A stretch of 64,000 nt of DNA. Source: Gautieria morchelliformis. Lineage: Eukaryota > Basidiomycota > Agaricomycetes > Gomphales > Gomphaceae. Below the pieces are notes generated by a model. That model searched no databases. It had not been told where the DNA came from and was given only the letters and a program-made list of their open reading frames with translations. Within the stretch, counting starts at the first letter, position 1. Every line of letters begins with the position of its first letter. Made by a program: the position numbers and the translations under genes. The stretch is taken from NCBI GenBank assembly GCA_015179125.1, contig WHVA01000037.1, positions 186,001 to 250,000 of the forward strand, written 5' to 3'. This document shows positions 15,600 to 36,732 of the stretch, one piece after another.

Positions 15600-18420
15600 A
15601 TACTACAGCTGGTTTAGTGTTCAGCCCTTGTAGACCAGCAATTGTGGTGGAGACATCAAAATTGATGCCGGTGAGCTAAGCAAGATCAGCATCAAACAGT
15701 GTGGCTGAATAATGAAGGGGTGACATACCGATAGAGTACCAATGGCCGTACTTGCCTCAATATTAGCCGCCCCCGATAATTCAATTTTTTCCAAAGAAGA
15801 TATGGTGGTTTGCGTCAAAAATTGCTCGAAGACTGCAAATTTATCACTGAAGACTGCAAAAGGAATATCACTGAATGTCAGGTGGATAACACATGTGTTC
15901 ACATCTGTCTGGCTGGGACCCTTGGGAATAACAAGCTCAGCAAATGATTGACCTTGCGAGGTCGCCGTAATGTTCTGCTCAAGCGCAACAATATCGATAG
16001 GGAATGCAAACGGAATCTGGAAGGTGGCGGTTGCTGCGTTGGAGCTCGTTTAAGGCCTGAATGCAGTGCCAGGTGTGAAGTCTAGCTCGAGTTGTTCAAG
16101 GGTAATTGACTTGATGGCCTGCAGGGGTCCTTGAGAAGGCAACACTGTGGACATTTGTAAGCTCTTGATTGCACTGTTCAGCCAAGTTACCTGTATGTCG
16201 CAAATCACAAATCGACGTAAGCATTGGGAATACAACAACGGCGAAGCACGTACATCGCTTGGAGCAGCAGAATTCCCCACGACGGTGACAACAGTTGATT
16301 TGCCATGGATGAAGCCCGTGAACACCTGTGAGACTAAATAATGTGCCTTTGGTTCGAAGATATTGTTGTACAATGACGCGCATCACACACCTGTGGCCAA
16401 TCCAGAAGCTGAATCCTGGTGGATTAAATGGCCCACTAAAGGTAGGTTGAAAGTAGCTATGACTATGAATGTATATTAGCATGCGACGATCTCTGGGCAA
16501 CGGTATACACAGACATTGGGGGGCGAGGGTAAAACCACTGCTAGACGCTGCAGGCCCTAACAGTGTTTCTCCCACGAAGTTGTTGAAGCCGATAGAGCTC
16601 AGCTGCACGCCCACCTGAGATGGCTAGGAACACAGGGACATCAATGCACTCTCTCAGATCGAGTGTGCTACTACTTACATTGGTAACCGTAGTCTGGAGG
16701 GTAAGGTAATTCCTGGTATGGTGATGCCTAGTAGAGATTAGTGGGATGTGGTAAGATGGGAAGCGAACTCACCCAGGGCTGAAATGGACAAATTCTCTCC
16801 TGTGATGTCCCACACAAAGTCTTCTTGTGTCAAGAGGGCCTGTGCGTTGATGAGTACTAGTGCATTTCCTGAAATGAATAGCCATTATACCTGGGTGAAA
16901 GACGTGAGCCGGCCAACATCTGCGACGTGGAATGACGCAGAAAGATTGAGCTGGGCACCAATGTCACCTTGAAGATGTTCAGAACATGATTTAGTTATAT
17001 ACCTATACTGAATATACACACCAATAACTTGAACCTTCGGCATCGCAATGCTATCCAACGGCTGTCCCTGCCAGGAGATAGTGAGTCCTGCGCCAAATTC
17101 GATCTCAGCATCGACTAATCAAATATGTTAGTTTCCCGCAATAGGTATAAAGCATTGTCACACACATGGTCCAGCAGGACAAGCAAGTCTCGAGCTTGAA
17201 AACAAACTTACCGAAAGCAGTCTCCTGCAGGGTGCTGATGAAGACAGTATTGATCCTGCCTGAGCCAGTTTTAGTACAAAACGGAGTGCAGGTCATATGA
17301 AACTCACGCCAAGACAGCGCCAGTAATAATTTTTTGAACAATAGGTTGCGCCAGAATGGGCAGCAGCAAGTTAAGGCTGTCATCAGTGGCCACCGGCACG
17401 GCAAGCTGAGTGAAGTCCAGCGTTGTGGGATAGTCACCTGACAACCATCAGATGCTGACTGCCCCACAGGCCGAGATTAAACTCACTAATAGACACCGCA
17501 GAACTCAAAACGATGTCAGACTGTAGCTATTTGAATGCTGCGTCAACAAAGCTTGGGAGATTGAATCACCTACACGACGTGGCATCAGTACGGAACTATG
17601 AGGGACTGATGGAAGCCCACGTGAATATGTTGGTATTGTTCCCCTGCTACTTTTGCAAGACCGTGGTTCCATCAGCGTCCGAGCTAGAAATATACTGAAT
17701 CCCTCCCAGTGAAACGATCACATCTATTTGATCCGTCCTCTGGCCTGCCTGGGCAGTTAAACGGCGGAGAGGGGTAAAGATAGTTGGAGGCTCGAGGTTC
17801 ATATTCAGGTCGAGCATCGGTGACGTAGTCGTCGATTTTCCGCTCGCAGGGAAGTTCGTGGAGGTCTGGATGGTGCCTAGGCTGAGCCTGTGTGACATCA
17901 CCATTGAATTGATGCTCGTGATGGTCAATCCTGCGCTGAAGGGGTTCTTGAGGTTGACATTTACGTGAGCCATGTTGTTCTGCTTCCCAGTAGTGTTAAG
18001 AACTGATATCCATGGGTAAGTCGGGGAAGAATCGCATATAGGATGAACATGGACTCGTGAGAGCGGCGCTTTGCAGAAGGGTAGAGTTCAGTGCAGGGAG
18101 CAAGGTGCTGATACTGAGACTCTCAAAGGCTTGAAGCAGGGAAGGAACCACCGTACTCCCGTTGAATCCCATGATCTGAAGCAATAGGTCTGTGCCGCCT
18201 ACAAATTCATTGAGTGTCTGCAGACCCTGCAGACTGTTGTTGGGCTGGAAGCAACCAGGTCAGCTGATGAAAGCACGAGCCAACAGTTTCCAGAGCGCAC
18301 CTGGAAGGCGCTTGTAGCTGCCATTGTGTTGTTTCCCATGGCCAACGAGAGATTTGGGAGCAAAGCTGTTCCAGGAACAGCACCATCCTGTATTAATTGC
18401 AATTGCAAGGCTGAAAGGTG
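15600..18420 (-). pseudogene. DUF3712-like multi-exon gene fragment (minus strand)
   Basis: Reading from 18408 leftward there are about ten exon blocks split by short introns. Examples: PNLSLAMGNNTMAATSAFQ, then an intron GTGCGC..TTCCAG; FVGGTDLLLQIMGFNGSTVV; NPFSAGLTITSINSMV; FTGFIHGKSTVVTVVGNSAA near 16320. The repeated GxxT..NPF and VxGDSAxPSDV-like modules are characteristic of DUF3712 proteins. An in-frame TAG at 17527-17529, frame changes near 16690 and a missing start show that it is broken. It ends abruptly against satellite at 18421, so it is a captured fragment within the 18.7 kb element. Confidence 0.6.
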
Positions 18421-18670
18421 ATGTTCAACTCAGGCTGTCAGCGCACCAGCGCAAGCCTGAGCTGACAGCGACGTGCACCAGCGCACGCGTGCGCTGACAG
18501 CGCTGGTACACGCGCAAGCCTGCGCTGACAGCGACGTGCACCAGCGCACGCATGCGCTGACAGCGCCGGGTACCAGCGCATGCCTGCGCTGACAGCGCCG
18601 GTACCAGCGCAAGAGTGCGCTGACTGCGATGTGCACCAGCGCACGCTGCGCTGACAGTGCCTACGGCGGT
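18421..18670. repeat. Palindromic satellite array, segment D (inverted)
   Basis: Same monomer as segments A and B but in reverse complement. It forms part of the right inverted repeat of the 18.7 kb element. Confidence 0.85.
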
Positions 18671-19550
18671 CGGTGTGCACAAATATTATCCCAACTCCAC
18701 GCCAAAGGGAAAAATTCCCGTTCGTGTGGCATTGCATTTTGCGCGCACGCGCAATTCACTGCAAAGTGTTCCTGCGCGCGCTGGTGCTTTCTGGCACAGT
18801 CACGTCACCTGCCCTCGTCTTACATCATGATTTGCTAGTCTTTGAAGGCAGGGAATTTATTTTATTTTGGCTAGTATGATGGATGGGACCCTTATAAATG
18901 ATTCTAGGTAGATTTTCTGGCCCTACATAAGATTCTGATCATCATTATTTTCAACATTCGAGCCGTCAATCGGTTGTAACTGCACAGGATGAGTCACCCT
19001 TTCCCAGGCTGTGGTGCAGTGGACTCCGTAGGTCATGTGATGTGTCTACAACCACCCATGTTGTGTAAGTATTTCCCACGCTGAGTTACGGTGAAAGCCA
19101 AATAGATGTCCGAACAAACTCAATGTGGGAAATACTTACACAACATGGGTGGTTGTAGACGCATCACATGACCTCCGCAGTTCACTGCACCTCAGCCTGG
19201 GGAAGGGTGACTCATCCTGCGCAGTTACAACTGATCAACGACTCGAATGTTGAAAATAATGATGATCAGAACCCATCCATCATACTAGCCAAAAAAAATA
19301 TAATTCCATGCCTTCAAAGGCTAGCAAACCATGATTTAAGACGAGGCCAGGTCACGTGACTGTGCCAGAAAGCACCAGCAACACTTTGCGGTCAATTTCA
19401 CGTGCGCGCAAAATGCAATGCCACACGAACGGGAGTTTTTCCCTTTGGTGTGGGCGTGGGATAATATTTGTGGAAACCAACTGCCATAAGCGCTAGGTAC
19501 CAGCGACCGTGTGCGCTGGCAGCGCCGGTACCAGCGCACCGTCCAGCGCA
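18671..19550. repeat. Large imperfect palindrome, right copy
   Basis: Reverse complement of the 1781-2583 / 9190-9270 palindrome. It is uninterrupted here and so shows what the left copy looked like before the Gypsy insertion. The centre is at about 19080-19125. No gene. Confidence 0.7.
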
Positions 19551-20017
19551 TGGTCAACACACTATTCCAATTTCTAGACAATTCCCCAACCCAGGAAATC
19601 CTCAGGAAATCTTGAGATATTGTGAATTTCCTCCTCCTAAAAACTGAATATTTACTATAATTTCCAGAGTCAGGAAATCATAGAGAAATATAAGATTTTC
19701 ACAAGATTTCCTGCCAAGATTTGCAGAATTTCCTAATATTTTCCTGTACCAAAAAACTCTGAGGAAATTTAGAATTTACTCATGATTTCTTTAGACAGGA
19801 AATGATGGTTAAACTGTCAGTTTCTGGACTCAGTTTCCTCACGATTTCTTGGACCATATTTTTACAATTTTTATACAATTTCCTGAACTTTGGAAACCCT
19901 TGTAAAACATTAAATTTCCTCTAAATTCCCATCCTAGGAAACTCTCAAGAAACGTGGAATTTCCATAGAATTTTCAAGGGGTTTCCTGACTTGAGAAATT
20001 TTGCCATGCCTCCAGTG
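19551..20017. repeat. Right terminal region of the 18.7 kb element
   Basis: Inverted copy of 1309-1776 ending CCTCCAGTG, followed by the ATG target duplication. Confidence 0.8.
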
Positions 20018-21424
20018 ATGGGCCAATAGAAGAACTTCACATGTAAAATAATTAAAGTTAGTAATACAACAAAAACGCATCGTAGCAATTCAGGCTTGGC
20101 TTCTCGTCAGGAGTTGGTTACTAGCCTGGATTTGCCTGGGCAGAATGCATTTAAAACTTGTCCTGTAACACTTGGCACTCATTGTCGACTCGTTGTGTGG
20201 TATCAGCATAACAACACATGATAACCAACTGCGACAAAGCTCACTGATGTGCATTAATATCACACATCTCCAATGGTTACCTAGGATGGGAACACGAGGA
20301 AGTGAGACGGTATGAGAGATCTAGCTCAGTCGCCACAGTTTTCATGTTTCTGTAATTCTATAGCGACGTTAGATGGTCTCTGCAGACATACCAGCTGGTC
20401 AATGCTGCAAATATCTCAGTTGTCGGTATGTCCTGTACGACGTGGGAAGACGTTGTATAAAGAAACCATCAGAGATCGACACGGGGAACAACGACATGGT
20501 AACCGAGATATTGTGCATTCGGTGTATCGGCTGTGACGGCGATGGAGTGCTGTGCCTGGAGGAAAGCCCAGGAAGCTACTGAGGTGATCTGCGACATGTT
20601 TGCAGTTTTGCTTAGGATGATATTATGAGAATGACAACAGTGCGACCTAGCAAGAATAAACGGTATTGGACGTCTGGCATGTTTTTGCAGTTGATAATTC
20701 AGATTGGCAAAAAGGGTAGTACGTCAGCCCCTTGGAACACCGGTAACAAGCTAACCTGGTTGGATCCAGAGGAAAACAAAAACGACATTATCTGGATACA
20801 CGACACATTCCCATCGAATTTCAAACACTTATCGACCAGATACTGATAATTCTGAGCAAAGAGCGTGCCTCCCCCCACCAAACAAAGACAAACATGCACA
20901 CCGACGCACGACCCGGCAGTTACAACGAGCAGTGCGACACGGACACGGACACAGACAACCTCATCTTTCATGGCATTACCACGCATTTTACCCCTCCGCC
21001 CCTTACACAACGCTACCAGCCTCCCCTCCCAGGCTTCATATCTCCCACCGCCCTCTCCCGCCCAAGGCCATGAAATTATAGTGATTCCGGTATGCCTTCC
21101 AGTGGAGGGGAGGGTGGGGTGGGTGTATATGTGCCAGGTGTAGATAAGGCAAGCAAGGCGAACGAGCGCAGTTCACGCTATTTCCCTTTGCATATAAAGA
21201 GCCCGTCCATCCTGCATGACGCGTTTGCTGCCTTCTCCACCATGTCGCCATCCATCCATCCGCCAGCATGATCCAGACACAGACACAAGCACAGGCTCTG
21301 GAGACACAACCCCACCTTAGGCAATGGTACGTCCCGTCGCCCAGTCCCGCGGGTCTCATACCGAACACCACTCGCTGCTCCCTAAGATGCTACGCGCCCG
21401 GTCCTTCCCAGCACCGGCCACCGG
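20018..21424. repeat. Host repeat: DUF6533 upstream spacer and start of the GC-rich module (copy 4)
   Basis: Direct continuation of the 1-1308 unit across the 18.7 kb insertion. It is homologous to 43180-44700, 53900-55400 and 59984-61390. It includes a TATA-like CATATAAAGAG near 21195 ahead of the GC-rich module start. Homology stops at about 21424, where a CACTGTAG sequence begins. Confidence 0.6.
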
Positions 21425-22021
21425 CACTGTAGAAAACTCCAACATTAAATTTCGGTACCTTTTACACAAACGGCAATAATCAGTACCTTTGAGCACTGAC
21501 AAATCAGTGCTCAAAAATGACATTAAATGAGCACCAAAAACAAGTGCTTTTGAGCACTGATTTTCAGATACTAAAAAACATGCAAGTATCTGAATAAAAA
21601 AAAAGTGTGATTGCTGCCCTCTTCACTCGCTGTCATAATCCCACTCATACGTCGAAGGACAAGGATTTTTAAAAAATACCTTGTTAGGTTCCAATTTTGG
21701 ATTTTATAAAATTGGATTTAATTGCGGTTTAAATCTACAATTTTCATGCATCTAACCATAGAGGGACCTTCCAGCCTGCGCTCCCTTCTCTCTTTGCCTT
21801 GAACCGTCCGTGGTTGGCTAGGTACCAGCTCATGTGTTGACAGCCTCAGGGCAGCCTGCAGAGCAGAATCGACTGTATTAGTAATGCGTGTCTCTCCTGC
21901 CCCTGTCATTGGCGAAACCGGAATTCCCTAATACCACTGTATAAGCACTTGCCGCTTTGGTAAGCCTGCGAGCGCCTCATACTCACTTGTAATAGCCGTA
22001 ATACAAGGCCGATGTAAGCCT
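21425..22021. other. Possible DNA-transposon terminus with subterminal hairpin motifs
   Basis: Starts CACTGTAGAAAAC exactly where host-repeat homology ends. It contains several TTTGAGCACTGA motifs, two forming a 12 bp stem hairpin at about 21497-21524. These look like CACTA-type subterminal repeats. A second CACTGTATAAGCACTTG occurs at 21935. It may be the left end of the Plavaka-bearing element; no mirrored right end was found. No gene is seen here. Confidence 0.3.
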
Positions 22022-22030
22022 TGTTAGAAT

Positions 22031-22255
22031 TGTGGAACAAAGGAGTTATAATAAACTGTTATATTCTACGATCTGTACAAGATCGTCTGTCCTTATATAC
22101 TAAATATGATGTTCCTATATTACTAATCCTTCGAGCTGATGCTGTGCCGATGGCGTGCCGGTGCACCAGCATCCCGGAGTCAAGAGCGATCTTGAACTTC
22201 CTGCTAAGTACGTGCCGGCTCTGCCTTGGCCGTATCATCATCCCAATTACTAACA
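22031..22255 (-). repeat. Copia 3' LTR
   Basis: 225 bp. About nine differences from the 5' LTR, mostly C/T or G/A at CpG positions. Confidence 0.9.
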
Positions 22256-22264
22256 CTCCCCCTC
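22256..22264 (-). other. Copia polypurine tract
   Basis: GAGGGGGAG on the minus strand, immediately before the 3' LTR. Confidence 0.7.
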
Positions 22265-22803
22265 AGAGAGAAGTCCCTTCGACAAAATCCTAATTTCCCT
22301 AATAAATACCTATGTTGGTGCAAGTCCAGTCCCTTCGTAAATATGTCCGCTACGTTCTCCTTCGTCGGTACGTACATAAGTGATGCCTCGTGAGAGGCCA
22401 CTTTCTCACGGATGAAATGATATGCGACATTGATATGTTTGGTACGCGCATGACATGTTGCGTCATGTGACAGTGTAATGGCGCCTAGATTGTCTGATCG
22501 AAGTGACGTGGGCTGGGCTTGATCTATTCCTAGCTCCTCAATGAAGCGCCTCAGCCAGATCAATTGCTTGGCGCCCTCGGTGAGTGCCATGTATTCGGCC
22601 TCCGTAGTAGATAATGCGATCGTTCGCTGCTTCTTTGAACTCCATGCAATGGCTCCCCCTCCTAGTATAGCTACATAGCAACTAATAGACAGTGCGTCGT
22701 TTCTATTAGCATAATCCGAGTCAACAAATATTTCGAGGTCGAGACCAGCATCTCGTAGGAAGGTTACGCCGTCGTCACGTGACCCCTTGAGGTACCTGAG
22801 CAC
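22265..22803 (-). pseudogene. Copia RNase H segment
   Basis: Contains FVDSDYANR (first catalytic Asp), STTEAEYMAL (Glu), SDNLGAI (Asp) and KHINVAYHFIR, the classical Copia RNase H blocks. Upstream it is cut from the RT by a TGA at 22895-22897 and by a TAC-repeat expansion that shifts the frame. Confidence 0.85.
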
Positions 22804-22894
22804 ATGCTTGATCGCCGTCCAGTGCTCGGCTCCGTAAGTAGTAGTAAGTAGTAGTGAATTGGCTCAGATGTTGTACAGTAAAAGCCAACTCAGG

Positions 22895-23905
22895 TCACGT
22901 GCTGAGTGCTGCATACATTAGCGATCTGATTGCTTTAGCATAGGGTACTTCAGCAGTTGGACCTGTTGAGTCCATAGGCATTGTGAGTTTGATCATTTTG
23001 TGTAGAGGTGTAGATACGGAATGACCCATAGCCATGTTGAATTGATCGAGTATGATGTCGATGTAATGTCCTTGAGACATGATCAGTGTTCCCTCATCCC
23101 TATTCATCTCAACCCTAATTCCCAAGATTTTCTTCATTTCTCCTAAATCTGTTAAAGGGAATTTTCCATGAAGCTCCCCCTTGAGCTTAACCATCCCTCC
23201 TTTGGAATCAGCAAATAGTCTGAAGTCATCCACGTATACTGATATGACTTTGATTGAGTCCTTATCTTGCCTGATGTAGACGCATTCATCGGCTGTGCTT
23301 TGGTGGAAGCCGAGATCGAGTAGTAATTTGCGTAAGCGCTGATGCCGAGCTCGTCCCGATTGCTTGAGTCCGTAGAGCGCTCTGCATATTCTTAGAACGC
23401 GTCCAGATCCATCATCAAAACCGTCGGGCTGACGCATGTAGATCTCCTCATCTATGGTTGAATTGAGATAGGCGCCTTTGACATCCATCATTTCAATTTC
23501 CCAATCGAGTGTGTTTGCTATGGCTAATAGAACACGTAGTGAATCGAACTTGACCACAGGTGAAGTTATCTCATAATAATCCATCCCTGGCCTCTGTGTG
23601 AATCCTTGAGCTACAACCCTTGCTTTAGCCTTATCGAATTGTCCATCTGGTTGTGTTTTGACAGCGTATACTCATCGGCAACCGATAGCTACTCGTCCGG
23701 GCGGTATCTCTGTTAATTCCCATGTTCCTAACGTCTTGTGTTGATCCATTTCAATTTCCATCGCTTTCTCCCAGATCGGCGCATCATCACGTGATACCGC
23801 CGCTCTGGAATTCTCAGGTTCAGTAACAATTTCTCTCGTTATGTAAACCTGCTCGGTGCGTCCTGAATCATTCAGTTTCCGTAATCCGGTCTTTGAGTGA
23901 TACAC
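22895..23905 (-). pseudogene. Copia reverse transcriptase
   Basis: Contains IWEKAMEIEMDQH at the N terminus, MDVKGAYLN, the LYGLKQSGR motif and the catalytic YVDDFRLF. An in-frame TGA at 23670-23672 replaces the tryptophan of the usual GCRWVY motif, and a TGA at 22895-22897 ends the block. Both fit single transitions in an otherwise continuous frame. Confidence 0.85.
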
Positions 23906-24017
23906 GCGCTCCGTCGAATCTGTGGAGCTGGCGCTTGTTCAGGTGGATCAGGGACGGGCGTTGTCTGGGGTGATGACATCTGCAGGGTAGATGGGATCGG
24001 GTCCGGCACATGCTCGC

Positions 24018-24506
24018 TGTAAGGGCAACCCTGGCTGGTTGTGGAGATCACACTACCACACAACTGACAAGGGGAAATCCAAAGTATGTATAAATTAACA
24101 GAGTATACAGAGAGGGGATTCTCACCTGACAAGGGGAAATCCAAAGAGAAAAGTCTAAGGACCCCCAATGTCAGCGAGCCCGTATTATACTACGCTGCGC
24201 AGCCAGGGACAACACTTGGCACTCTCCATCAACCCTGCATCTCCCTGACCACCCTGACCCTTGGTCAACCCTTGATGCCACCTATTACGCGAGTCACTTG
24301 ATTTCCGACACTGTTCTGAGAGTAGAAGTTGGAAATTGGAGTGGAACTGGCAAGGCGAACAGAACTGGTGGAAGTTCTCCCAGAAGCGGAATCATTTCCG
24401 AAAGCGGAGGCGGAGATGGAATCGGAACCGGAAGCGGAGTCGGAAATGGAGTCGGAACTGGGTGTGGTGTCGGAACTGGAAATGGAAAACAGGGTGTCCC
24501 CTGACA
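24018..24506. mobile_element. 489 bp solo LTR between Copia integrase and RT
   Basis: TGTAAGGGCAACC...GTCCCCTGACA with a perfect TSD CTCGC at 24013-24017 and 24507-24511. It is an inverted relative of the solo LTR at 39971-40433. It contains degenerate GGAATCGGAACC-type hexamer repeats and two copies of a GGGGAAATCCAAAG motif. Its termini resemble the Gypsy LTR (TGTGAGGGCAAC...CCCTGACA), suggesting a related family. Confidence 0.85.
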
Positions 24507-24511
24507 CTCGC

Positions 24512-25412
24512 GCGGTGAGTGCTCCCCCTCGAGCGGTGCCGTGGTAGTGTCATCGTCATCGTTATCCAGGACAGGATAGAGTTTATTGTCACTTTCATCG
24601 AATGTGATATTTCTTGAGATTCGAACGTGCTTTGAGGCTTTGTTGTAATACCTCCAGGCTTTTGCATGTTCAGCTACTCCGACGAATATATGTTCTTCTG
24701 CTTTTGGATCAAGTTTAGCTCGACGTTGATCCGGCACCATAACCCAGCAGTTTCTCCCGAATTCTTCTAGACGTGCTATGTTCGGCTTCTTGCCGAATAG
24801 TGCCTGGAACGGCGTTGCATCATCTCCAAGCGCTCGCGTGGGTGATCGGTTTTTGATATAACACGCGTAAGCCACGGCTTCAGGCCAGAGTATTTTTGGC
24901 AGGTTCTTGGCAAATATCATTGCCCATGCGTGCTCGAGTAAGGTCCGATTGAGTCGTTCTGCAATTCCATTCTGGGCTGGGGAGTATGGAGCTCTGGTCT
25001 CCATGATAATGCCATATTTTGCACAAAATTCCTTGAAATTTTTATTGACATATTCCCCTCCATTATCCAAGCAAAATCTCTTCAGTTTCTGACCTGTTTG
25101 GGTCTCAAGGAATGCTTTGTACGTCTCGAAGTGCTTGAGTGCTTCATTTTTGGCGCTCCCGAAATAAATGGCCGTGTACCTAGATTTGATGTCCGTGAAA
25201 GAATAGAAGTACTTTTCACGTGATGGTCCCTCGGTCTGGGCAGGCCCCCATACATCGGATACTGTTAGGTCACCGACCTGTTCTACAGTGTCCTCGGCTC
25301 TTTTGGGGAACAGCTCCACATGTCGTTTGCCTTGTATGCATGCCTTGCACTGGCTCAGCTCGTTTGACTCGTCGATCTCAAGTCCAGTAACTAGATCATT
25401 AGATTTCAACAT
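24512..25412 (-). pseudogene. Copia integrase
   Basis: Contains the zinc-finger end (CKACIQGK), a DVWGPA motif with the first catalytic Asp, the CLDNGGEY block (second Asp), and YSPAQNGIAERLNRTLLE (Glu). It is separated from gag-protease by an in-frame TAG at about 25452-25454 where the family has a tryptophan. Its 3' end is interrupted by the solo LTR. Confidence 0.85.
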
Positions 25413-25451
25413 CTTTATAGAATTTATGTTGACGTGCCCGAGTATCCTGTG

Positions 25452-26734
25452 CTATTTGTCCCATGACTGTCCCTTTGCCGCTGTGGCAAAGTCCCATGCC
25501 TCAACTGATCGAGTGACCTGTGCCTTCATACAGAATAGCCTCCCGCGCTTCTGTCCCTGTGCAAAAATAACTCTGGCGCGTGTTTTGAATTCGACGCCGG
25601 TGCCTGTACATGTGGCCGTGTTGCCCTTATCAGTTAGACGCCCTACACTGATAAGGTTGTTCGGCGCATCTCGTGCATGCTTGACGTCACATAGTTCGAT
25701 CGTGTTCATCTCGGCGCCAACCTTGAATTCCATGTATATAGTGCCTCGGCCTTGTGTATGTAGTACCGCATCAGGTGAAATTCCTTCAATTTCTGATGGG
25801 TCCTCGGCATAGCTAGCGAAATCATTTTGGCTTCGGGCTATGTGTGTTGTTGCCACTGAATCGGCTAGCCAGTCGGATGCCGATATAGCACTGTATGCTA
25901 CCTCCTTAGATACAAATGCGAAGTCCTTTTCTTCTGCTTGTTTAACTGTCTCTTTGTTCCCTGATTTGAACCACTTTGGTGCTTGGCCTTCCTTGCCGCC
26001 ACCTTTCGCCCAGCAGTCCTTCACGTAATGACCCTTCTTGCCGCAATTTTGGCACTTTCCCTTTGTTGCTCCTGAGTCATCTTTCCTGGGCCTGTGACGT
26101 TGTTGCGCCTTAAGCGCCATCTGCTGTGCCGATCCAGCTTTCCATGCTCGATCCTCATCGAGGACTTGAGCTATTAATATATCAGCTGTCGTCCCGGCTC
26201 CACTGGTGTTTACTGCCGTAATAAACACCGACCAAGAATCTGGTAATGATGTCAGAAACGTGTTCGAGAATTCGGTGTCACTGATGTAATGTCCTCGTGA
26301 ATTGAGTTCCTGTTGAATGCCGCGGAGCTTGCATACATGCTCCTCCATGTTCGCGCCATCCTCGGCAAGTGTCCGGAGGAAATCTCTTCGGAGATTTATG
26401 ATCCCCATGGCTCCCTTAGATTCAAATATCGCTTGTAAACTAGTCCATACAGCAAATGCAGACATTGTCTGATTGATGTAAACTAGTTGTTCATCGGCGA
26501 CTCTGAGGCAAATCTCTTTTTGGCTTTCTTGTCCTTCCTTCTCCAATCATTGATTTCCTGCTGCTCGGTTGCAGTGACATTGTCGGCATCTGCCGGTCTC
26601 GGTTCCATCTCCCTGCCGATAGCCACGTCCCATAGATCTAAATCGTTGAGTATCCACTCGAGCCGCCAGCGCCACGCCGCGTAATTGTCCCCGTTCAAGG
26701 GGTCGATCTTGTACGTGTTGTTGCTATTTGACAT
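25452..26734 (-). pseudogene. Copia gag and protease (frameshifted)
   Basis: The N-terminal gag starts MSNSNNTYKIDPLNGDNY at 26734, with the YAAWRWRLEW core. A 1-base indel in an A-run near 26515-26530 moves the frame into the block ending at 25452. That block carries gag helices, a zinc knuckle CQNCGKKGHYVKDC and a degenerate protease site WLADSVATTHI, where the family's DSGA reads DSVA. A protease without the glycine is probably inactive. Confidence 0.85.
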
Positions 26735-26811
26735 CGTCGATCGGTATTGAGTCGGTGGAGTATAGAGTGTAGTTGGAGTAAGTTAGATTTGTAGTAGTTT
26801 AGTTATGCACG

Positions 26812-26823
26812 GGGCCCATAACC
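26812..26823 (-). other. Copia primer binding site matching the initiator tRNA-Met anticodon arm
   Basis: Minus-strand GGTTATGGGCCC abuts the 5' LTR. It is complementary to the GGGCCCAUAACC anticodon arm of eukaryotic initiator tRNA-Met as I recall it. Drosophila copia primes from a half-tRNA in this way. Confidence 0.65.
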
Positions 26824-27048
26824 TGTGGAACGAAGGAGTTATAATAAACTGTTATATTCTACGATCTGTACAAGATTGTCTGTCCTTATATACTAAATAT
26901 GATGTTCCTATATTACTAATCCTTCGAGCTGATGCTGTGCCGATGGCGTGCCGGTGCACCAGCATCCCGGAGTCGAGAGCGATCTCGAACTTCTGGCTAA
27001 GTACGTGCCGGCTCTGCCTCGGCCGTATCATCGTCCCGATTACTAACA
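26824..27048 (-). repeat. Copia 5' LTR
   Basis: 225 bp partner of 22031-22255. Confidence 0.9.
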
Positions 27049-27053
27049 ACAAT

Positions 27054-27288
27054 AAGAGAAGCGCGAGTAAGAACGATGCAAGAGTGTATATGGGGCATTT
27101 GTCCTGTGAGCGCTTTGGGGCAAATGGATGGTTACATACATGGAGTGTAAAGACTTATAAATGTTTTAGGAACAAAAGGAAGGTAGAACAATAAGAAAAG
27201 CGAGAACAAAGGGCTTGACAATGGTACGCGCAAGCCTTTGATTACATAAGCGTAAACAACGCGTAACCCGCTTGTTATAATTCCAACA
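27054..27288 (-). repeat. Outer element 3' LTR (main part)
   Basis: Continues from TGTTAGAAT at 22022-22030. Together they equal the 244 bp right LTR. A purine-rich GCGGAGGAG (27289-27297, minus strand) abuts it as polypurine tract. Confidence 0.85.
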
Positions 27289-27328
27289 CTCCTCCGCAAG
27301 CTGTGAAGTGTGATAATAAAATATGCAA

Positions 27329-28210
27329 TCAAAAGGCTACCTCTTCAGCAGTGAAAGCAACTTCCTCTTCATCTTCAAGAGCGGCATTGGCAACACTGTC
27401 TGAGTCATTAGTAGGGCAGACCGAGCGAAAATGTCCGACTCCTCCGCATTTATGACAGGCGACCTTGGATATGTCCCCTGAGGCGGTGGACTTCGATGGT
27501 TTGCCTTTCCATCGGGTGGATCCTCCGGGCGTAACAGCAGCGGCTGCATCGGAAGTAGCGTGTGAAATGGTGTTACGAAGGCGACCTTCTTCGTTCATGA
27601 GATGAGTGACCACATTTTCAAAAGTAAGAGAGGCAAGGGGAATGCCAGTGATGTTGACAATAACAGGTTGATAGGCAGAGGGGAGGCCATTTAAAAGAAC
27701 GCTGATTTTGTCGAGATCGGAAATAATGGGGGGGTGGCTAGTAGAAGGATCGGAAGGAGAATTGATAGAGGTGGAAGGAGCGTCGTATTTTTCCGCCTGA
27801 TAACATTCCTCCAAGCGATAAGCAGCATGACGAATATTGGCTACATACTGAGCAATGGTGGATTCTGAAGGCATGGACATTTTGAGGAAATCCATACGCA
27901 TGGCGAGCAAGACACCCAAGCCACGCGCGCGGTGAATTTGGGTGAGATTCTGCCAAATAACGAAAGGGTCCTCCTCATTTCTGACGTGGGGAAGCTGCGA
28001 AGGTTCTATTGCAAGGATAATTTTGGAGCAAGCGAGGTGTTGCTTTTCCAAGAAGGCTCTGGCGCCTTTGGAGTTTGGTCCAGTGGTTGGCATGACATCT
28101 CGGCCACACACAACCCCAAATAGTCCTTTTTCCTCCAGGAGGGCTTCCATTTGAATTTTCCAGTCATCGTAGTTGACTTCGTTGAGCTTGTCAAAAGGTA
28201 ATGAAGGCAT
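27329..28210 (-). CDS. Gag-like protein of the non-autonomous outer element
   Basis: About 293 residues from MPSLPFDKLNEVNYDDW. The frame is open upstream to 28339, but this start matches the usual Copia gag beginning. It has the gag core (WKIQMEALLEEKGLFG, LARGLGV-like helix region, LLNGLPSAYQPVI) and a C-terminal CCHC knuckle CHKCGGVGHFRSVC followed by an acidic tail. The frame is intact while no enzymatic domains follow. This suggests that the element keeps its own particle protein and borrows enzymes from an autonomous Copia. Confidence 0.75.
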   Translation of the reverse strand: MPSLPFDKLNEVNYDDWKIQMEALLEEKGLFGVVCGRDVMPTTGPNSKGARAFLEKQHLACSKIILAIEPSQLPHVRNEEDPFVIWQNLTQIHRARGLGVLLAMRMDFLKMSMPSESTIAQYVANIRHAAYRLEECYQAEKYDAPSTSINSPSDPSTSHPPIISDLDKISVLLNGLPSAYQPVIVNITGIPLASLTFENVVTHLMNEEGRLRNTISHATSDAAAAVTPGGSTRWKGKPSKSTASGDISKVACHKCGGVGHFRSVCPTNDSDSVANAALEDEEEVAFTAEEVAF

Positions 28211-28388
28211 GATCTGATAAGATTTCCAGTGTACTATCCGAGTAGGGACCGTGACAAAATTCCAGTGTGCCGCAGCAGTGGCTGTGAGCTCACAAGCTAT
28301 TCCGGTGTGTCCAAGACAGAGGCCGTGAGGGGGTACCAATTTGTGTCTGGTGACAGTTGCGGTGATCCGGCAATGGGAGATCCGTTTG

Positions 28389-28632
28389 TGTTAGAATAAG
28401 AGAAGCGCGAGTAAGAACGATGCAAGAGTGTATATGGGGCGTTTGTCCTGTGAGCTCTTTGGGGCAAATGGATGGTTACATACATGGAGTGTAAAGACTT
28501 ATAAATGTTTTAGGAACAAAAGGAAGGTAGAACAATAAGAAAAGTGAGAACAAAGGGCTTGACAATGGTACGCGCAAGCCTTTGATTACATAAGTGGAAA
28601 CAACGCGTAACCAGCTTGTTATAATTCCAACA
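28389..28632 (-). repeat. Outer element 5' LTR
   Basis: 244 bp, TGTTAGAATAAGAG...CCAACA, followed by the AGCCT duplication. Confidence 0.9.
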
Positions 28633-28845
28633 AGCCTTACATCGCCCCATAATGTACAGGCAGGGTTTAAGGTGATTACAACACGATATAAACATTGTAC
28701 ACCATCGTAAGTGAGGAGTAAGGATTATAAGGCCTCGTAAGTGGTCAGTCAGCCTCGATCCAACTTACATGGTGGAAGTAACCCTCGCCGGTCATTCAAT
28801 GCCTGCAACTCGGGCTCGGAGGGTCTGCGGCGGCAGCTCAGGAGC
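28633..28845. other. Downstream flank of the Plavaka gene
   Basis: Short CGTAAGT and GCCTTAC motifs recur here and continue into 21960-22021 across the LTR element. They may be subterminal repeats of the DNA transposon. No gene. Confidence 0.3.
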
Positions 28846-30506
28846 TCAAGCGGAATCATACTCATCTCCACCGTCTTCCCCCTCATCTCTGGCCTCATCG
28901 TCATCCTTGGCATCCTGATCGTCATCCTCATCATCTTGAATGTCTTCATCCTCGCTGTCTGACAGAGCATCGGACTCCAAGTCACCACCCTCCAATTCTT
29001 CGTCCAACTCAGCCATCGCCATGTCTTCTGCATCACCAAGAGTGTGGTTCCTAGGGCTGTTGTGTGTGGGATCCATCGGTTCATCCAGATCGGCGCTCTC
29101 CTCAGGACGACTCACGCTGGTCTCCGTAGCGTAGTGAATAGAATGGCCAATCCCTCCGCCAAGGAATCACATGAGCATGTCGCGGTCAGCCCATCTGTAT
29201 ACCTTCATTAAAGAATGACAGTCGAATAGCATGTAAATGGAATATTTACCTGTTTACATAGTAATACTGCCATTCGTCATGGCGCATATTGTCACCTTCA
29301 TGCGCAATTGAAGGTGCTGACAGCAGTTCATCAGTCTTCCCGTGTGCAAAAGCAGGTATGAGATGGGCTGCTCGGATGATGTTGGCAGGATCTAGGAATC
29401 CAAAGGGTTCCATGTCATCGGTTTCAGTGACGAATCTGATTTGGTCCAGTTGACGGGCTTGGGGACCAGAACGCTATGTCGTATCCTTCCCAAACCATCG
29501 GACCCAAAGGAAATGCATGACCTGAGGGGGAGCAAGCATGCCATTGGCTTGTTCATAGATGACATGTGTGTGGTACACCCCGATGATGCAAGCATACCAA
29601 TATGGATGATACTGAGAGCTGCTCGGATCATCCTGCGCATGCACCATTATGTCACAATGCTCTGTCCGTGGGTTGAAGGAGTCTTGACTGCAACGAAGGT
29701 CATAGGTGGTAAAGTTGATGCGAACAATGTAGTGATGGTAAATACGATGGTTGGCAAAAATGACACGGATGCGTTCAGCAGCGGTGAATGTCACCTCATC
29801 TCCATCATATTCTTGGCCCAACAGACGTGTGAGCAAGTGGTCCTGAAGCCTGGGGTAAAAGTCCTGGGAGTGATGTGTGACATGAGGCAATGCACCTCGA
29901 AGTATATAGCCAAACAAGACGAACCTTCACTGACGGATCGCCTTCACGTTCCTGCAGGAATGCACCGATGTCCATGGGGTATTGGCAGCCATCAGAGATG
30001 TGGTGATGGAGTTGGGGGTTTGTATAAGGTAAATATTCTTCGACAGGATGTCCTTGCAGTTCTCCAGATTTGTGTGTTTGGTCAACCCGGCTACGGATGG
30101 CCTGCATGTGCAGTTATTGACGATCGAGGTTGGTCATGCTCAAGGCCGGTGTGCTCTTGGAGGCACGAGGGTAGCGTCGCTTTGAAATTCTATGTTCCTG
30201 CTCACCCTAATTGGTGCATGAGCTATCAAACTAGTCAAGTCATTGTGGGAGAATCTGACCACTTGAGTAGAAAATGAATCCGTGGTCCCATACTGGCGTA
30301 TGGTCGTGACATAATCTCCCATGGCGTGTAATTTGTAGGTGGACAAGTTAAATGTTTTGATCTTTTTGTCTGCAGGCAGGCGACCAACTGACCTTTGTGC
30401 AACTGTGCTAGAAGCGCACTCAGCGGAATTTTTGGCACGTCGGCGAGCCTGAGCAGCTGCTTCCCAAGGCAGAGCATATGTCTCAAATGACGCAGCAGTC
30501 TGCGTA
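28846..30506 (-). pseudogene. Plavaka-type transposase, C-terminal part
   Basis: Reading leftward from the LTR border: the block TAASFETYALPWEAAAQARR, then LSTYKLHAMGDYVTTIRQYG followed by STQ, then HHHISDGCQYPMDIGAFLQ. A long block with INFTTYDLRCSQDSFNPR, FLWVRWF and FGFLDPANIIRAAHLIPAFA follows, then the tail with an aspartate/glutamate-rich C terminus. This is the known C-terminal order of basidiomycete Plavaka transposases (KDZ/CACTA-related DNA transposons). Several exon junctions and at least one frame change occur between blocks. It belongs with 31127-31983 and 32599-34382. Confidence 0.75.
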
Positions 30507-30511
30507 GAAAA

Positions 30512-31126
30512 TAATATAAATCAGAGTAAGGGGTTGGGGTCGAGTGAATAATGATGTGATAAAGATCTCAAGCAGTGTTCTGGTGAGAGATAAGAGCAAT
30601 GTTCTAGAGTTCTAGAATTAAGCAATGTTCTTAGTGCAATAAGAGTTGAGGAGGAAACAATAATAGTCCAAAGAAGCTTATAACTCGAAGCTCTAGCGAA
30701 AAAGATTGTTAAGTCACTTGTTTATTCGTATCTAGAGTCCAAGTATTTAAGCAGTGTAGGATAGGGGGAAATAATCATGTGTAAGTGTAATAATCATGTG
30801 AAATATGATGTTACTTAGGGGATAGGAGCATAATGATGTCAACAGTGATGCAACAGCTCCTATATGGCTAATCTCTTCATAAATGATGGAGATGATGCAA
30901 TAAATGATGTCAGACCAGTGGAATGACGACTCGACTCGATAATAGGCATGAAAATGAACTCTTAACTCAATGGTACGCATGTCTGCGCCTCGACTCGATG
31001 TTTGACTCATGGTACGCATGTATGCGCCTCGACTCGACTTGGAATGATGGGAAAATAAGGTGAGTGATAAGAGAAATTAGAAGTGAGATTGTCCTGATTG
31101 AAACTGTCCTTCCTCCTCCAATAACA
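30512..31126 (+). mobile_element. 615 bp solo LTR, left inverted copy
   Basis: TAATATAAATC...CCAATAACA in this orientation, the inverse of 31984-32598 and of equal length. Its left flank GAAAA and right flank CTGTT do not match each other; each matches a flank of the other copy. It contains GTCGAGTCGAGGCGC-type repeats. No ORF. Confidence 0.85.
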
Positions 31127-31983
31127 CTGTTAGCCTCTTTGCGTGACAAGGGGAATTGCCCATGCCCACGCTGCCTCGTTATTAAGAGCCAAATCTCACA
31201 TGTGGGGACTCGGAATGACCAGAGCCGCCGTCAAACTCAAAGACGCGAGGATAACCATCAGCTTCGTCATACAGTAGCACGGGCTCGATCATTTGTATAT
31301 GACAAGGGTTGTGTGGTAAACAGTAAGGCAGTGGACAGCTTACTCAAACCACAATCACTGGTCCCCACCATTGTCAGTCTACTTTCTCTCTGCTGCTGTC
31401 TGCATACTGAACTGGGATGGACACACAGAATGCATTCTCTGACAAACTTGCGTCAACGGGTTTCCAGTTTTACCAGGTCTTTGTCGTAGATTTTCTGCAT
31501 GAAATTGAGCTCGGGGTATGGAAGGCCATGTTCACCCACTTCATTCGTCTGTTATACGCACATGACGCCGAGACCGTCCATGAACTCAACCGATGGTATG
31601 TTCTATATCTATGATAAGGTCTGTCACTAACTACTGTGACCTCAGCTACCGGATGATTCCAACATTCGGACGTGACACCATACGTCGGTTTGCAAACAAT
31701 GTCTCAGAGATGAAAAAATTGGCAGCACGAGATTTTGAAGACATTCTGCAGGTATACCATTGAACTAACCACGTCATTCATGATGCTATGGCCCACTCGC
31801 ACAGTGTGCTATGCCAGTTTTTGAAGGGCTCCTACCTCCACCATTTGACGACCAGCTCCAAGACCTCCTCTTTGTGTTCTCAAGCTGGCATGGCCTTGCC
31901 AAACTGCGATTGCACACAGATACCACTCTCCACAACCTTGAGGAACTCACAGCTATTTTTGGGACTCTACTACGTCGTTTTTC
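31127..31983 (+). pseudogene. Plavaka transposase middle part, inverted
   Basis: Plus-strand exons with LLASLRDKGNCPCPRCLV, an intron GTCAGT..ACACAG, then VVDFLHEIELGVWKAMFTH. An intron GTATGT..CCTCAG follows, then TFGRDTIRRFANNVSEMKKL. An intron GTATAC..CGCACAG follows, then PVFEGLLPPPFDDQLQDLLF. This is the central portion of the transposase whose N- and C-terminal parts lie on the minus strand. The frame joins both neighbours perfectly if the segment is flipped. Confidence 0.8.
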
Positions 31984-32598
31984 TGTTATTGGAGGAGGAA
32001 GGACAGTTTCAATCAGGACAATCTCACTTCTAATTTCTCTTATCACTCACCTTATTTTCCCATCATTCCAAGTCGAGTCGAGGCGCATACATGCGTACCA
32101 TGAGTCAAACATCGAGTCGAGGCGCAGACATGCGTACCATTGAGTTAAGAGTTCATTTTCATGCCTATTATCGAGTCGAGTCGTCATTCCACTGGTCTGA
32201 CATCATTTATTGCATCATCTCCATCATTTATGAAGAGATTAGCCATATAGGAGCTGTTGCATCACTGTTGACATCATTATGCTCCTATCCCCTAAGTAAC
32301 ATCATATTTCACATGATTATTACACTTACACATGATTATTTCCCCCTATCCTACACTGCTTAAATACTTGGACTCTAGATACGAATAAACAAGTGACTTA
32401 ACAATCTTTTTCGCTAGAGCTTCGAGTTATAAGCTTCTTTGGACTATTATTGTTTCCTCCTCAACTCTTATTGCACTAAGAACATTGCTTAATTCTAGAA
32501 CTCTAGAACATTGCTCTTATCTCTCACCAGAACACTGCTTGAGATCTTTATCACATCATTATTCACTCGACCCCAACCCCTTACTCTGATTTATATTA
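31984..32598 (-). mobile_element. 615 bp solo LTR, right inverted copy
   Basis: TGTTATTGGAGG...TTATATTA. The left flank TTTTC (31979-31983) matches the flank GAAAA of the other copy in reverse complement. The right flank AACAG (32599-32603) matches CTGTT at 31127-31131. The two TSDs have therefore been exchanged. Confidence 0.85.
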
Positions 32599-34382
32599 AA
32601 CAGTACCCTGTGCTGATACATGAGTATTCAGAGAACAACAATAGGAGTCTAGTACTTGCTTTTCAGGATAATCTGCCGAATAAGTAAATATCCTGGGGTA
32701 GACCCGCCGAGTGATGCCATCTGCACACTTGATCACAATGCCATGTTTGTATGCATCCACAAATTCGTTGTCCAGTAGCAGTTGCCAGAGAGCATGCATG
32801 AGTTCATGCCGGCAGTGGGTCAGCAATGGGGGGCGGGCCGCATGCCCTCCCGTCAGGTTTCGAATGAAGTCCTGGATTGAGTCGGGAAGCTAAAAAGCTG
32901 TTAGTCAGTGAAGATGCATACAGATAGGGACATACCAATGGAATGTCTGCCACATGGTGAGAGAGGTGTGCACTTCGTGAGTATTTGCTTTGAGAGCCAA
33001 AGAACATGTAAATCGGCCATAGTTTGGCGGTGCCAAAACTAGTCAGATGTGTCAAGTCAGACCAAAACATCAGTGGAGCAATGACTTGTTCCAGTTTGCA
33101 TCCCGGCTCCTGCGGAAGCTGTTTGTGCTCCTGATTCCAAGCCTCCGAGCAAAATAATTCCCCCCACAGTCTTTCCCGTTGGGCAGAGTCACCTGTTCCC
33201 TGGTGGTACCATTCAAAGGGGGTGAAATGAAGATCCCGGGCGGTCGAGAATACCTTTTTTATGATGGCACAGATGGAGCGACAATACAAGTCAGGGATAT
33301 GGAAGTCCCGCCCCCCAGGTGAATGGCCCCGGTGCTTTTTTGCCTCGGGTATACTTATTGAAACGGAAACATTCCATTTCCAGCCATCGGCCCCATTGGG
33401 TTCTCCAGGGAGGATGTCAGGCATCGTATCAATGCCATCTAAGACCTGGGACAACTTGCGATGTGAGAAATGCTCTAGTTCTCCCGGGTCAAACCATTTG
33501 TCCTGAAGGACATGGATGAGATTGTCAAAGTCTCTTCCGGAATGTTCCCCTGAAGGAGAGTTAATATACCAGTCACCAAGTAGAAATTGGGAGATGTTTG
33601 GGAATGGCCAGAAAGCCGCGCGAGCAGTGGGATGGATTGACTCGGTGGCACCTGATGAAGTATTCACTTGCGGCACCCATTCATCCATAGGCAACACAGA
33701 GTCTGGATCGTACGAGGGTCGACCAATGTACTCCCCCACAGGCCAAACACATTCGGGGCTGTACAAACCCTTTCCCAAACCCGCAAGATCACATGAGGGA
33801 GGCAGTGATCTGTGACAGGGGCTGGCGGCGGTGGGGCTGGCGGACTGGAAGGAGATCACGATACCTGTGAGGCAGTCTAGTCGTCCGTCTGGGACATGTG
33901 CCCTCACTGTCAATCTGTACCTGAGAATCATGGCCCACGGAGTCCATCGTGCTGACACCCAAGTCATGGGTTTGAGCGCAGTGTCCTTCATTGCTTGAAA
34001 TGTCCTACAATGCCATTAGCACTACCATCTTTACCATGCCAGGTAAGGATCCTGACCAGCTCACCTGTGAGATGCTCGCTGGCCACATGGCAGTGGACCC
34101 ACCCGCTACTTCAGGGCTAGCATGGCCCTCTTGAACGGAACATGGCGGGCTTCGTATGCAACGCCTTTTCGAGGGCCTATCCTGTTGGCGCAGGACATGC
34201 TGCGCTGTGGCAATTGTGTCACTTAGGTGACTCGCATATGTTGCGCACCCATTCTGGTGGAGAGACAGCCCCTCCTCTGTTGCGACCCTGTGGCCACAGT
34301 CGCATTGCCACCCTGAACCTCCCATAATCAGGAGTATCACACAGAATGTGAGCCTCCTAGTCCACATGCAAACCAACTGCAT
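32599..34382 (-). pseudogene. Plavaka-type transposase, N-terminal part
   Basis: Starts with a Cys/His finger (CDCGHRVATEEGLSLHQNGC), an intron (about 34007-34065, GTGAGC..TTGTAG), then a long block with YSPECVWPVGEYI, FWPFPNISQFLLGDWY, CRSICAIIKKVF and APLMFWSDLTHLTSFGTAKL. An intron near 32890-32935 leads to HCRHELMHALWQLLLDNEF and YPRIFTYSADYPEK. The last intron (32608-32659) is GC-AG (GCAAGT..GCACAG). The frame then breaks at the solo LTR and continues, inverted, at 31127. Confidence 0.75.
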
Positions 34383-34821
34383 GCGCAGGTATCAGCACAG
34401 GAGCACACAGGATCGCAGTCACCTTGAATGCCAGCGCAGGCCCACTTAGTAATTAGGCCTAATTAGTGTGACAACACGCCCAGCCCAACTCTGCTGTCAC
34501 AGAGCCGGGCGTAGTCAGCTTTGGGCATACGCCATCTTGAACTTCTTGAGCCAACATGAGATCAATGGCTTGCTCTTATATTGTCCCACTCTCAACATAA
34601 TACATGCACTGAATACCAGGCAAACCTAGTTGAGGTCAGCTCACTATTCAGCAAGGTCATGAGCGGCAGGTAGGAGAATTGTCTCACCGGCATCTATTTT
34701 TGCACCTCCGATCTAGTTGAACTAGTCGACGGTCATGTTTGACGGTCACGTGAGTCCAGTTATAAAATGACTGTTGATGGCTTGGAACATACCTGCCAGT
34801 ATCTAACCTGGACTTATTCCC
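34383..34821. promoter_or_regulatory. Shared divergent promoter region
   Basis: 440 bp between the divergent transposase and DUF6698-like starts. TTATAAAATG at about 34760 lies 60 bp upstream of the plus-strand ATG. A CACGTG E-box sits at about 34747. Confidence 0.4.
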
Positions 34822-36318
34822 ATGCCTGCGCCATTTGTCTCTGCTTCATCCTCGCTGCCGCCTTCATCCTCACCACCCTCCCGGTCTTCGTCCCCCAGGG
34901 ATGACACCCATGCCAACAAACGCATCGGTTCCCCTATTGACGATGAGGATGTCGGCCCGAACAGTCGCAAGAGAAGGTACATGCCGCTCACCTTATAACC
35001 ACCTCTAACAATCATGGTGCAGGACAAACCCTACTACACCATGGCGCGAGTGGGGGAGGACTTGTGCACGTGTGGTCGACGCATACACAGACCCCAAGTC
35101 TATCATCAACACGTACCTCAGGTCCGTTGTACCAGGGGCCTGTGACGCATTTTCAGAAAGGTTAGTGTTCCATTATGCCGCAGACTGACTCACCCGCTTG
35201 CAATGACAGCCAAAAGCGCGTCCTCACATCCTATGAGCTTCTAGTCAAACATAACCCGGCCCTCGGAGAGTATATTACTGATGCGCCTGTAGCTGATTTC
35301 AAGGAGGTATTTAAAGAGGTACGTGCACATCAGGACATCAGGAGTACACACCACACAAAGTAAACTGCACGACCCTTTCAGCTCAAGGAAGGCCAGAACT
35401 CCGCACGCCAAGCTGACACTAACAGTCTGAAATACGCGGTTGTGGACATGCTGCGCTTACACTATCCTGATTCCCTTGCTCTCCCCACGCTGGATCGCAA
35501 GACCAAGACCCTGGGAGGTTTTCGCAATGAACTCACTGGAGAGCTCCTATGTCCTACCACCCTGGATTGGACAGATGACAGGTGAGTTGCTATAATCGAC
35601 AGCCAGTAAGTGATACCACGCACCTGCAGCGTCAAAGAGAAACTGCGAGAGACCCCTAATCTGGCCTCAGCCTCCGCCTGGCCATTATTCTTCTACCCAA
35701 AGAGCGAGTATGACCCTGCGGACTTGGCCAAGGGTCTACTCCGAGGAGAACTGCTACTTTGTGTGAGTTCATAACAGTTTCAAGGTTATGGGGCTAATAG
35801 ACTGACATCTTCATAGGCTTACAAATTGATATATACCGGTCCCAGTAGTTGGGACAAAGCTCAGGGCGTGTCATGGCACACACACTACTGCAACGCGCGG
35901 CTGGCCGAGATGCAAGAAGTCACGCGCCGATCTCTGGCATATGTCGTGACTCAGGTATATGATTAGTGAACTCACATTGTACATATTAGGTATTCACCAT
36001 TCACCATGCATGTTTCCATCAGACACAGTTTGCATTGTCATCGGGGGAGACGAATCAGAAAGTTGGTGGTACATTCAACACAACAGTTTTTCTTCCACCT
36101 TGTGCAATTTTTAGAAGACCCGGACTTTGAGGAAGAGGTGCAAGACTTACTGCTCTGGTGGAATAGGTATGAAATATGCCACCGTGTTATACTGGCTGAC
36201 CGTCAACATGCGCAGTCACCTATTCCCGGGTGAAGAGCAGTCAGGTGACAAGAACAAAATGATGGACTCACTAGCGCTGATGAAAGCCCAGAAAGCGGCC
36301 AAATGGGCAGCTCTCTAG
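34822..36318 (+). CDS. DUF6698-like protein, eight exons, one frameshift
   Basis: Exons at 34822-34976, 35023-35160, 35210-35318, 35382-35581, 35630-35762, 35817-35954, 36023-36166 and 36216-36318, all with GT-AG introns of 46-68 bp. The N terminus is Ser/Pro-rich. The conserved core has VDMLRLHYPDSLALP, LLCPTTLDW, FFYPKSEYDPADLAKGLLR and RSLAYVVTQTQFALSS. The C terminus has FLEDPDFEEEVQDLLLWWN. I recognise this as the DUF6698 family of basidiomycetes, function unknown. Exon 7 needs a 1-base correction near 36083 to link its two conserved halves. It lies head-to-head with the Plavaka gene, so it may be an accessory transposon gene. Confidence 0.65.
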
Positions 36319-36732
36319 AGTGCTACCCGCGGTGCGATATATGGGTTCACATCGATGACGGCTTGGAGGAGCTGGTCCAGGTCATTGATTGAGAACTCTG
36401 TGTGTGCTTGCACAGGTTTTGAGAATTTCTGGGGCACAGGGGGGGTGGCAGCCAGGGGGTGGGATGAAGCCGCTGTGCTGGACCCGGTCTGGCTCAGACC
36501 GACAGGGATGTTTGCGAGCCATGCACCGATGCCTGGCATTGATGCCTCAGGTGCTGCGGCAGTTGTGATGCTAGGAGAAGGCGGTGGGAGCCTGCTGAAT
36601 GTGTTGAAGTGAAGGGGGGGAACTGTTCATGGCACTGTGGGGGGTGCTGTGGGGGTTACGACCGTCGGTACCCCCATAGAAGATGCTGGGAGGAATTGTG
36701 GGGTAGCTGGAAGCGTCATGGGGGAGTGGCAT
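36315..36732 (-). pseudogene. Small Pro/Ser-rich protein with Myb/SANT-like C-terminal start
   Basis: Convergent with the DUF6698-like gene; the stop codons overlap by 4 bp. From MPLPHDASSYPTIPPSIFYG it runs to a C-run near 36620 that shifts frame, then LPPPSPSITTAAAPEASMPG. It ends with FSINDLDQLLQAVIDVNPYI and stops seven residues later. That ending resembles the first helix of a Myb/SANT-like DNA-binding domain, here cut short. Function is uncertain. It may be a truncated transposon-associated DNA-binding protein. Confidence 0.35.

Follow-up and report, generated by a model that had tools for sequence, protein, structure and literature searches.

Probable LTR-mediated inversion within a Plavaka-type transposase gene of Gautieria morchelliformis, with target-site duplications exchanged between two solo LTRs

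How does the middle of a transposase gene come to lie on the wrong strand, enclosed by two LTRs whose flanks do not match? The question is raised by a stretch of 64,000 nt of Gautieria morchelliformis, hereafter the window (WHVA01000037.1, 186,001-250,000 forward; contig C415 of the 122-Mb assembly). It contains an inverted repeat whose arms, of 615 nt each, are 100% complementary and are separated by a spacer of 857 nt (Table 1). A preliminary description of the locus had presented these arms as two LTRs of opposite orientation around a piece of a Plavaka gene, and the arms are indeed found as described. At the level of the sequence, the LTRs occupy two distinct target sites, the middle of the gene is inverted with respect to its paralogues, and the flanks of the two LTRs are reciprocal. 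The best explanation, which we consider very probable, is that two Ty1/copia insertions, now solo LTRs, were followed by a homology-driven inversion between them.

Table 1. Coordinates of the features of the locus, in positions of the window (TSD, target-site duplication).
Feature	Position	Strand	Remarks
3' portion of the Plavaka-type gene, left of LTR 1	29099-30511	-	Aligns with paralogues
GAAAA, half of TSD 1	30507-30511	+	Partner at 31979-31983
LTR 1, lone Ty1/copia LTR	30512-31126	-	Element sense: TGTTAT at 31126, ATATTA at 30512
Private base, LTR 1	30697	-	LTR-sense position 430
Inverted middle of the Plavaka-type transposase gene	31127-31983	+	857 bp; remaining gene on the minus strand
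CTGTT, half of TSD 2	31127-31131	+	Partner at 32599-32603
TTTTC, second half of TSD 1	31979-31983	+	
LTR 2, identical to LTR 1, opposite orientation	31984-32598	+	
Private base, LTR 2	32413	+	LTR-sense position 430
AACAG, second half of TSD 2	32599-32603	+	
5' portion of the Plavaka-type gene, right of LTR 2	32599-33991	-	Pfam PF18759; traced as far as 33991

The right part of the gene matches the Plavaka profile PF18759 in a Pfam scan (32804-33991, minus strand, 40.6 bits for a cut-off of 26.3), and the exon nearer LTR 2 (32656-32844, minus) extends this match with 32.7 bits. The four exon pieces of the inverted middle and the three pieces of the left part, each scanned alone, give no Pfam match. 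In comparisons with paralogues, the left and right pieces lie on one common strand and the middle lies on the other. Seven paralogues that match the middle were examined (L030, L031, L032, L033, L036, L037 and L046); both neighbouring parts of the gene could be aligned in L030-L033, and blastn aligned one neighbour in the others (the left one in L036 and L037, the right one in L046). In all seven, which rank high among the matches, the middle and the neighbouring part of the gene share a strand, whereas in the window the middle has the opposite orientation, as the preliminary description had claimed. In total, parts of the middle are found at 25 loci besides this one, adjacent matches being grouped; the surroundings were read for six of these (C750, C132, C532, C347, C133 and C578), which leaves 19 with partial matches, and, in addition, for C296.

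The paralogues that keep the middle are only 66-72% alike to the window. The strand comparison rests on these copies because the copy on C881 (L038), which is about 95% alike in three pieces across 28632-36326, has lost the middle. The C881 copy was considered as a close paralogue bearing the middle and was dropped: the middle and the neighbouring parts are gone, and about 750 bp stand in their place (C881:233712-234462). These 750 bp are bounded by the complementary sequences CTAGTGTTGTTTA and TAAACAACACTAG, and the replacement is apparently another inserted element accompanied by a deletion. The ends of the Plavaka element were not recognised, either as terminal inverted repeats or by a target duplication. 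The contigs C605, C408, C1113 and C398 each carry, at 96-97%, an end piece of 716 bp (window 28632-29347), the rest of the gene being absent among the matches listed for the stretches compared; these copies may be short derivatives of the Plavaka element. For all these element copies (C881, L046 and the four end-piece contigs), the comparison covers matches over 120 or 150 bp.

The two LTRs begin with TGTTAT and end with ATATTA in the sense of the element, and so do all 36 other copies of the family that were compared. One family copy, on C176 (L079), has an interior in which Pfam recognizes, successively along the minus strand, Retrotran_gag_2, gag_pre-integrs, rve and RVT_2. Since this copy has a copia-type gag and an integrase that precedes the reverse transcriptase, LTR 1 and LTR 2 are assigned to Ty1/copia. 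All four of their borders meet gene or intron sequence that can be aligned with the paralogues. With none of the element's interior beside them, both are solo LTRs.

On the forward strand, the junctions read GAAAA-LTR 1-CTGTT and TTTTC-LTR 2-AACAG. In the sense of the element, LTR 1 has AACAG at its 5' side and TTTTC at its 3' side, and LTR 2 has TTTTC at its 5' side and AACAG at its 3' side. Neither LTR has the same duplication on both sides; the flanks are reciprocal across the pair instead. Re-reading the junctions thus bears out the pairing of GAAAA with TTTTC and of CTGTT with AACAG that had been pointed out before, and the ends of the inversion coincide with both LTR borders, where the flanks are exchanged.

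The paralogues show what the target sites were like. In the closest three, L030-L032, the two junctions read GGGTA-CTATT-AGC and CGG-TTTTC-TAC in the sense of the gene, with a single copy of each site. Read in the same sense, the window has GGGTA-CTGTT beside LTR 2 and CTGTT-AGC beside LTR 1, and of its two copies of TTTTC one ends the middle and the other begins the left piece. The site reads CTATT in the closest three paralogues where the window has CTGTT, and TTTTC is unchanged; in the more distant L033 and L046 the letters at both sites have diverged. Because the window holds twice each site that the closest paralogues carry once, each target site appears duplicated as a 5-bp duplication predicts, its two halves being split between different LTRs. 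The claim that turning the middle back restores the duplications agrees with this comparison. The paralogues had also been proposed beforehand as a refuting test of the inversion: none of the seven shows a strand switch, and the junction stretches of the five in which they were read (L030-L033 and L046) contain no 20-mer of the LTR.

The reading frame is consistent with the same arrangement. When L030 and L033 are compared at the protein level, a single subject frame accommodates both the end of the middle (frame +1) and the beginning of the left piece (frame -1), with an overlap of one codon. This is the frame that flipping was said to restore around LRRFS/TQTAAS. At the other junction (ADYPEK/VLLAS), the statement on the frame holds, but an intron had gone unmentioned and the passage reads as exon-intron-exon: from the reading of the sequence, a short intron appears to lie a few bases before the site in the paralogues and in the window, and the LTR insertion point is a few bases inside the following exon.

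The weight of the mismatched flanks depends on how regularly the LTRs of this family are flanked by duplications. Of 153 candidates, 40 were scored, and 36 of these lie outside the locus and contig C1010; with 30 further copies added, the sample comprises 66. Twenty-six of the 66 copies belong to 13 elements with paired LTRs, and 18 are solo LTRs with both ends readable, a solo LTR being one that is bordered on neither side by the first or last internal bases usual for the element. Because C382 and C402 have identical flanks and count as one, these solo LTRs represent 17 distinct loci. The other 22 copies are excluded from the duplication counts (eight that are one LTR of an element whose other LTR lies outside the sample, and 14 that are truncated or whose end was not found). 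The 5-bp flanks match in all 13 sampled paired-LTR elements and in 14 of the 17 solo loci; at C604, four of the five bases agree, and C174 and C380 are mismatched. When the 5' flank of one locus is compared with the 3' flank of another, the 30 control loci give three matches in 870 comparisons, and the sole reciprocal pair is formed by C996 and C395, each of which has the same matched flank, GTTTC.

The chance of the two 5-mer cross matches is about 9.6e-7 (of the order of 1e-6), assuming independent bases; the true value is somewhat higher, because target sites may be non-uniform, GTTTC being found at two of the 30 control loci. The observation could in principle be fortuitous, the flanks of the two LTRs having decayed or recombined and the inversion nearby being unrelated. 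Such flanks do occur, as C174 and C380 illustrate (2 of 17 other distinct solo LTRs), but here the inversion ends at both LTR borders and both 5-mers pair across; this reading is extremely improbable.

Two of the control loci deserve a mention of their own. The solo LTR at C174:202865-203479 (L053), of the same family as LTR 1 and LTR 2, has the mismatched flanks AACAT and AGATA and is a candidate for another LTR-mediated rearrangement; a search by its 3' flank, with one exact pattern, gives no reciprocal partner. The solo LTRs at C380:111606-112221 and C487:84229-84844 (L110, L111, L120, L121) have a common 3' flank and different 5' flanks. The C487 LTR has a matching duplication; the C380 LTR has none, which would fit a recombinant origin of C380 or a switch of contig inside the LTR.

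An alignment of LTR 1 and LTR 2 had been suggested as a way to look for gene conversion. The two are identical over 615 bp, and both carry at position 430 a base that is absent from the 36 other aligned copies, the nearest of which differs from them by 3 of 615 bases. The 22-mer that includes this private base is found at four places in the genome, namely the two LTRs of the locus and their two counterparts on C1010, and the usual base is found at 57; these counts are of exact matches, so that copies with further changes inside the 22-mer are outside them. Insertions at different loci are usually several bases apart: only 7 of 655 between-locus pairs of LTRs are identical, and these come from three locus pairs. 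Within paired-LTR elements, the LTRs are identical in 8 of the 11 elements compared and differ by one base in the other three. The shared private base fits an exchange, and conversion or crossover between LTR 1 and LTR 2 would explain it simply. LTR 1 and LTR 2 could also be sister insertions from a single source that has been lost. This would also account for the private base, and the three locus pairs demonstrate that identical LTRs at different loci exist in the family.

The same identity, including the base not found elsewhere, would also result from an aberrant integration in one step, in which two cDNAs of one element are joined crosswise to two staggered target sites 857 bp apart and the segment is inverted upon insertion. 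The reciprocal 5-mers would be those observed. LTR elements are not known to integrate in this way. The opposite orientation of the LTRs is merely one of its possible outcomes, whereas the recombination model requires the orientation that is observed; moreover, both elements would still have to become solo LTRs later. One-step integration is very improbable compared with two insertions followed by inversion.

The main rival is an error of assembly, because it gives the same reciprocal flanks. The insertions would be real, the assembler would have turned the middle between identical inverted repeats, and the real gene would be uninverted. Indeed, reads that fail to span a perfect inverted repeat of 615 bp leave the orientation ambiguous, and a flip made by the assembler would produce exactly the flanks seen here. 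Against this, the same assembly resolves the 13 paired-LTR elements, each about 5.7 kb long and flanked by a matching duplication, even though the LTRs are identical in 8 of the 11 compared. An error is disfavoured since the resolution of elements of about 5.7 kb implies reads longer than the 2.1-kb structure.

A second version of the locus is found on C1010, a contig of 22 kb which matches window 16155-33549 at 98.9% and has the same arrangement and orientation. Between 28700 and 33549, its differences from the window amount to two substitutions beside an indel and two further small indels, none of them in the LTRs. Almost all of the substitutions (119 of 123) are in 16155-17500 and 24500-27000, where they reach about 1-6% per 500 bp, perhaps as a result of mis-joined repeat copies. 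The possibility that C1010 is an independent second allele was set aside, as the contig is near-identical around the LTRs and its substitutions are clustered. It is probably a redundant contig, the same locus assembled twice, and lends weak support to the orientation. With respect to an assembly error, the agreement of C1010 in orientation speaks against a flip, though both contigs may derive from the same reads; its differences near the locus, mainly small indels, resemble residual long-read errors. An artefact is very unlikely. A point against the inversion itself is that no uninverted allele bearing the LTRs was found, C1010 being in the same state as the window.

The history proposed for the locus is thus as follows. 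Two copies of one Ty1/copia-type element would have inserted in opposite orientation, 857 bp apart, into the Plavaka transposase gene, each creating a 5-bp target-site duplication. Both are now solo LTRs, their interiors presumably lost by ordinary LTR-LTR recombination. Recombination through the 615 bp of inverted identity, most likely a crossover, would have turned the intervening DNA around after both insertions, thereby moving the inner half of each duplication to the other LTR and leaving the gene as two minus-strand parts with a plus-strand middle. The shared private base may have arisen by exchange between the two LTRs.

The preliminary description had called the locus direct evidence for homologous recombination between two solo LTRs after both had inserted. 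An inversion between the LTRs is supported by the present analysis, but the homologous route and the order of events are deductions. Crossover, single-strand annealing and template switching between inverted repeats all yield the same product. Likewise, both LTRs are solo now, but nothing indicates that they were so at the time of the flip: solo formation before or after the inversion is compatible with the data, and the inversion could have taken place between complete elements, which LTR-LTR deletion then reduced, with the same result.

If inverted LTRs keep flipping the middle, the nuclei would carry a mix of gene-broken and gene-restored orientations, and the two LTR insertions would have placed a transposase gene under a natural switch that works by recombination. 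We regard this as very unlikely; the middle has a single orientation on both contigs, C415 and C1010, with no sign of a mixture.

LTR-mediated rearrangement marked by mismatched duplications is already known, and the locus is a clean new example. Hughes and Coffin reportedly described, in 2001, LTR rearrangements of endogenous retroviruses in primates. In maize centromere 10, chimeric CR elements with mismatched duplications result from ectopic recombination between LTR elements (PMC4806543). There as here, an exchange of flanks between LTR copies at two sites leaves a copy with halves of two different duplications. The maize elements reported are chimeric or deleted and inversions are inferred from synteny, whereas here both reciprocal products are found together and the inverted 857 bp are a readable piece of a gene (PMC4806543). 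In yeast, the Ty1-mediated rearrangements listed in PMC3102749 include inversions. Ty1/copia repeats direct the rearrangement through recombination between copies in both systems, but the yeast cases are gross chromosomal rearrangements selected in the laboratory, whereas the present inversion is natural, spans less than 1 kb and lies between solo LTRs. Insertion sequences reportedly also invert DNA by recombination between terminal inverted repeats (PMC3004938). Inverted repeats flip the intervening DNA in both situations; those of insertion sequences are the ends of one transposon, whereas the present ones derive from two insertions at two target sites. According to PMC2672092, duplications are kept in solo formation and LTR dating is invalidated by LTR recombination between elements; PMC3024322 and PMC10085805 are loosely relevant to LTR-mediated rearrangement. 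Among open-licence papers, as judged from search listings and passages, there are related cases and none with reciprocal duplications of two solo LTRs exactly as here.

The interest of the locus is that it is a compact natural record: it preserves the two reciprocal products, the two target sites and, in the private base, a possible mark of the exchange, and the paralogues supply the ancestral order. If LTR 1 and LTR 2 have truly exchanged sequence, their identity gives no date for the insertions. At this small locus, PCR could also serve to measure how often short inverted LTRs flip the DNA between them.

To the left in the window, minus-strand open frames at 24294-28339 have, from their translations, a zinc-knuckle gag-like and integrase-like look. 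This region is probably another LTR element, which adjoins the locus.
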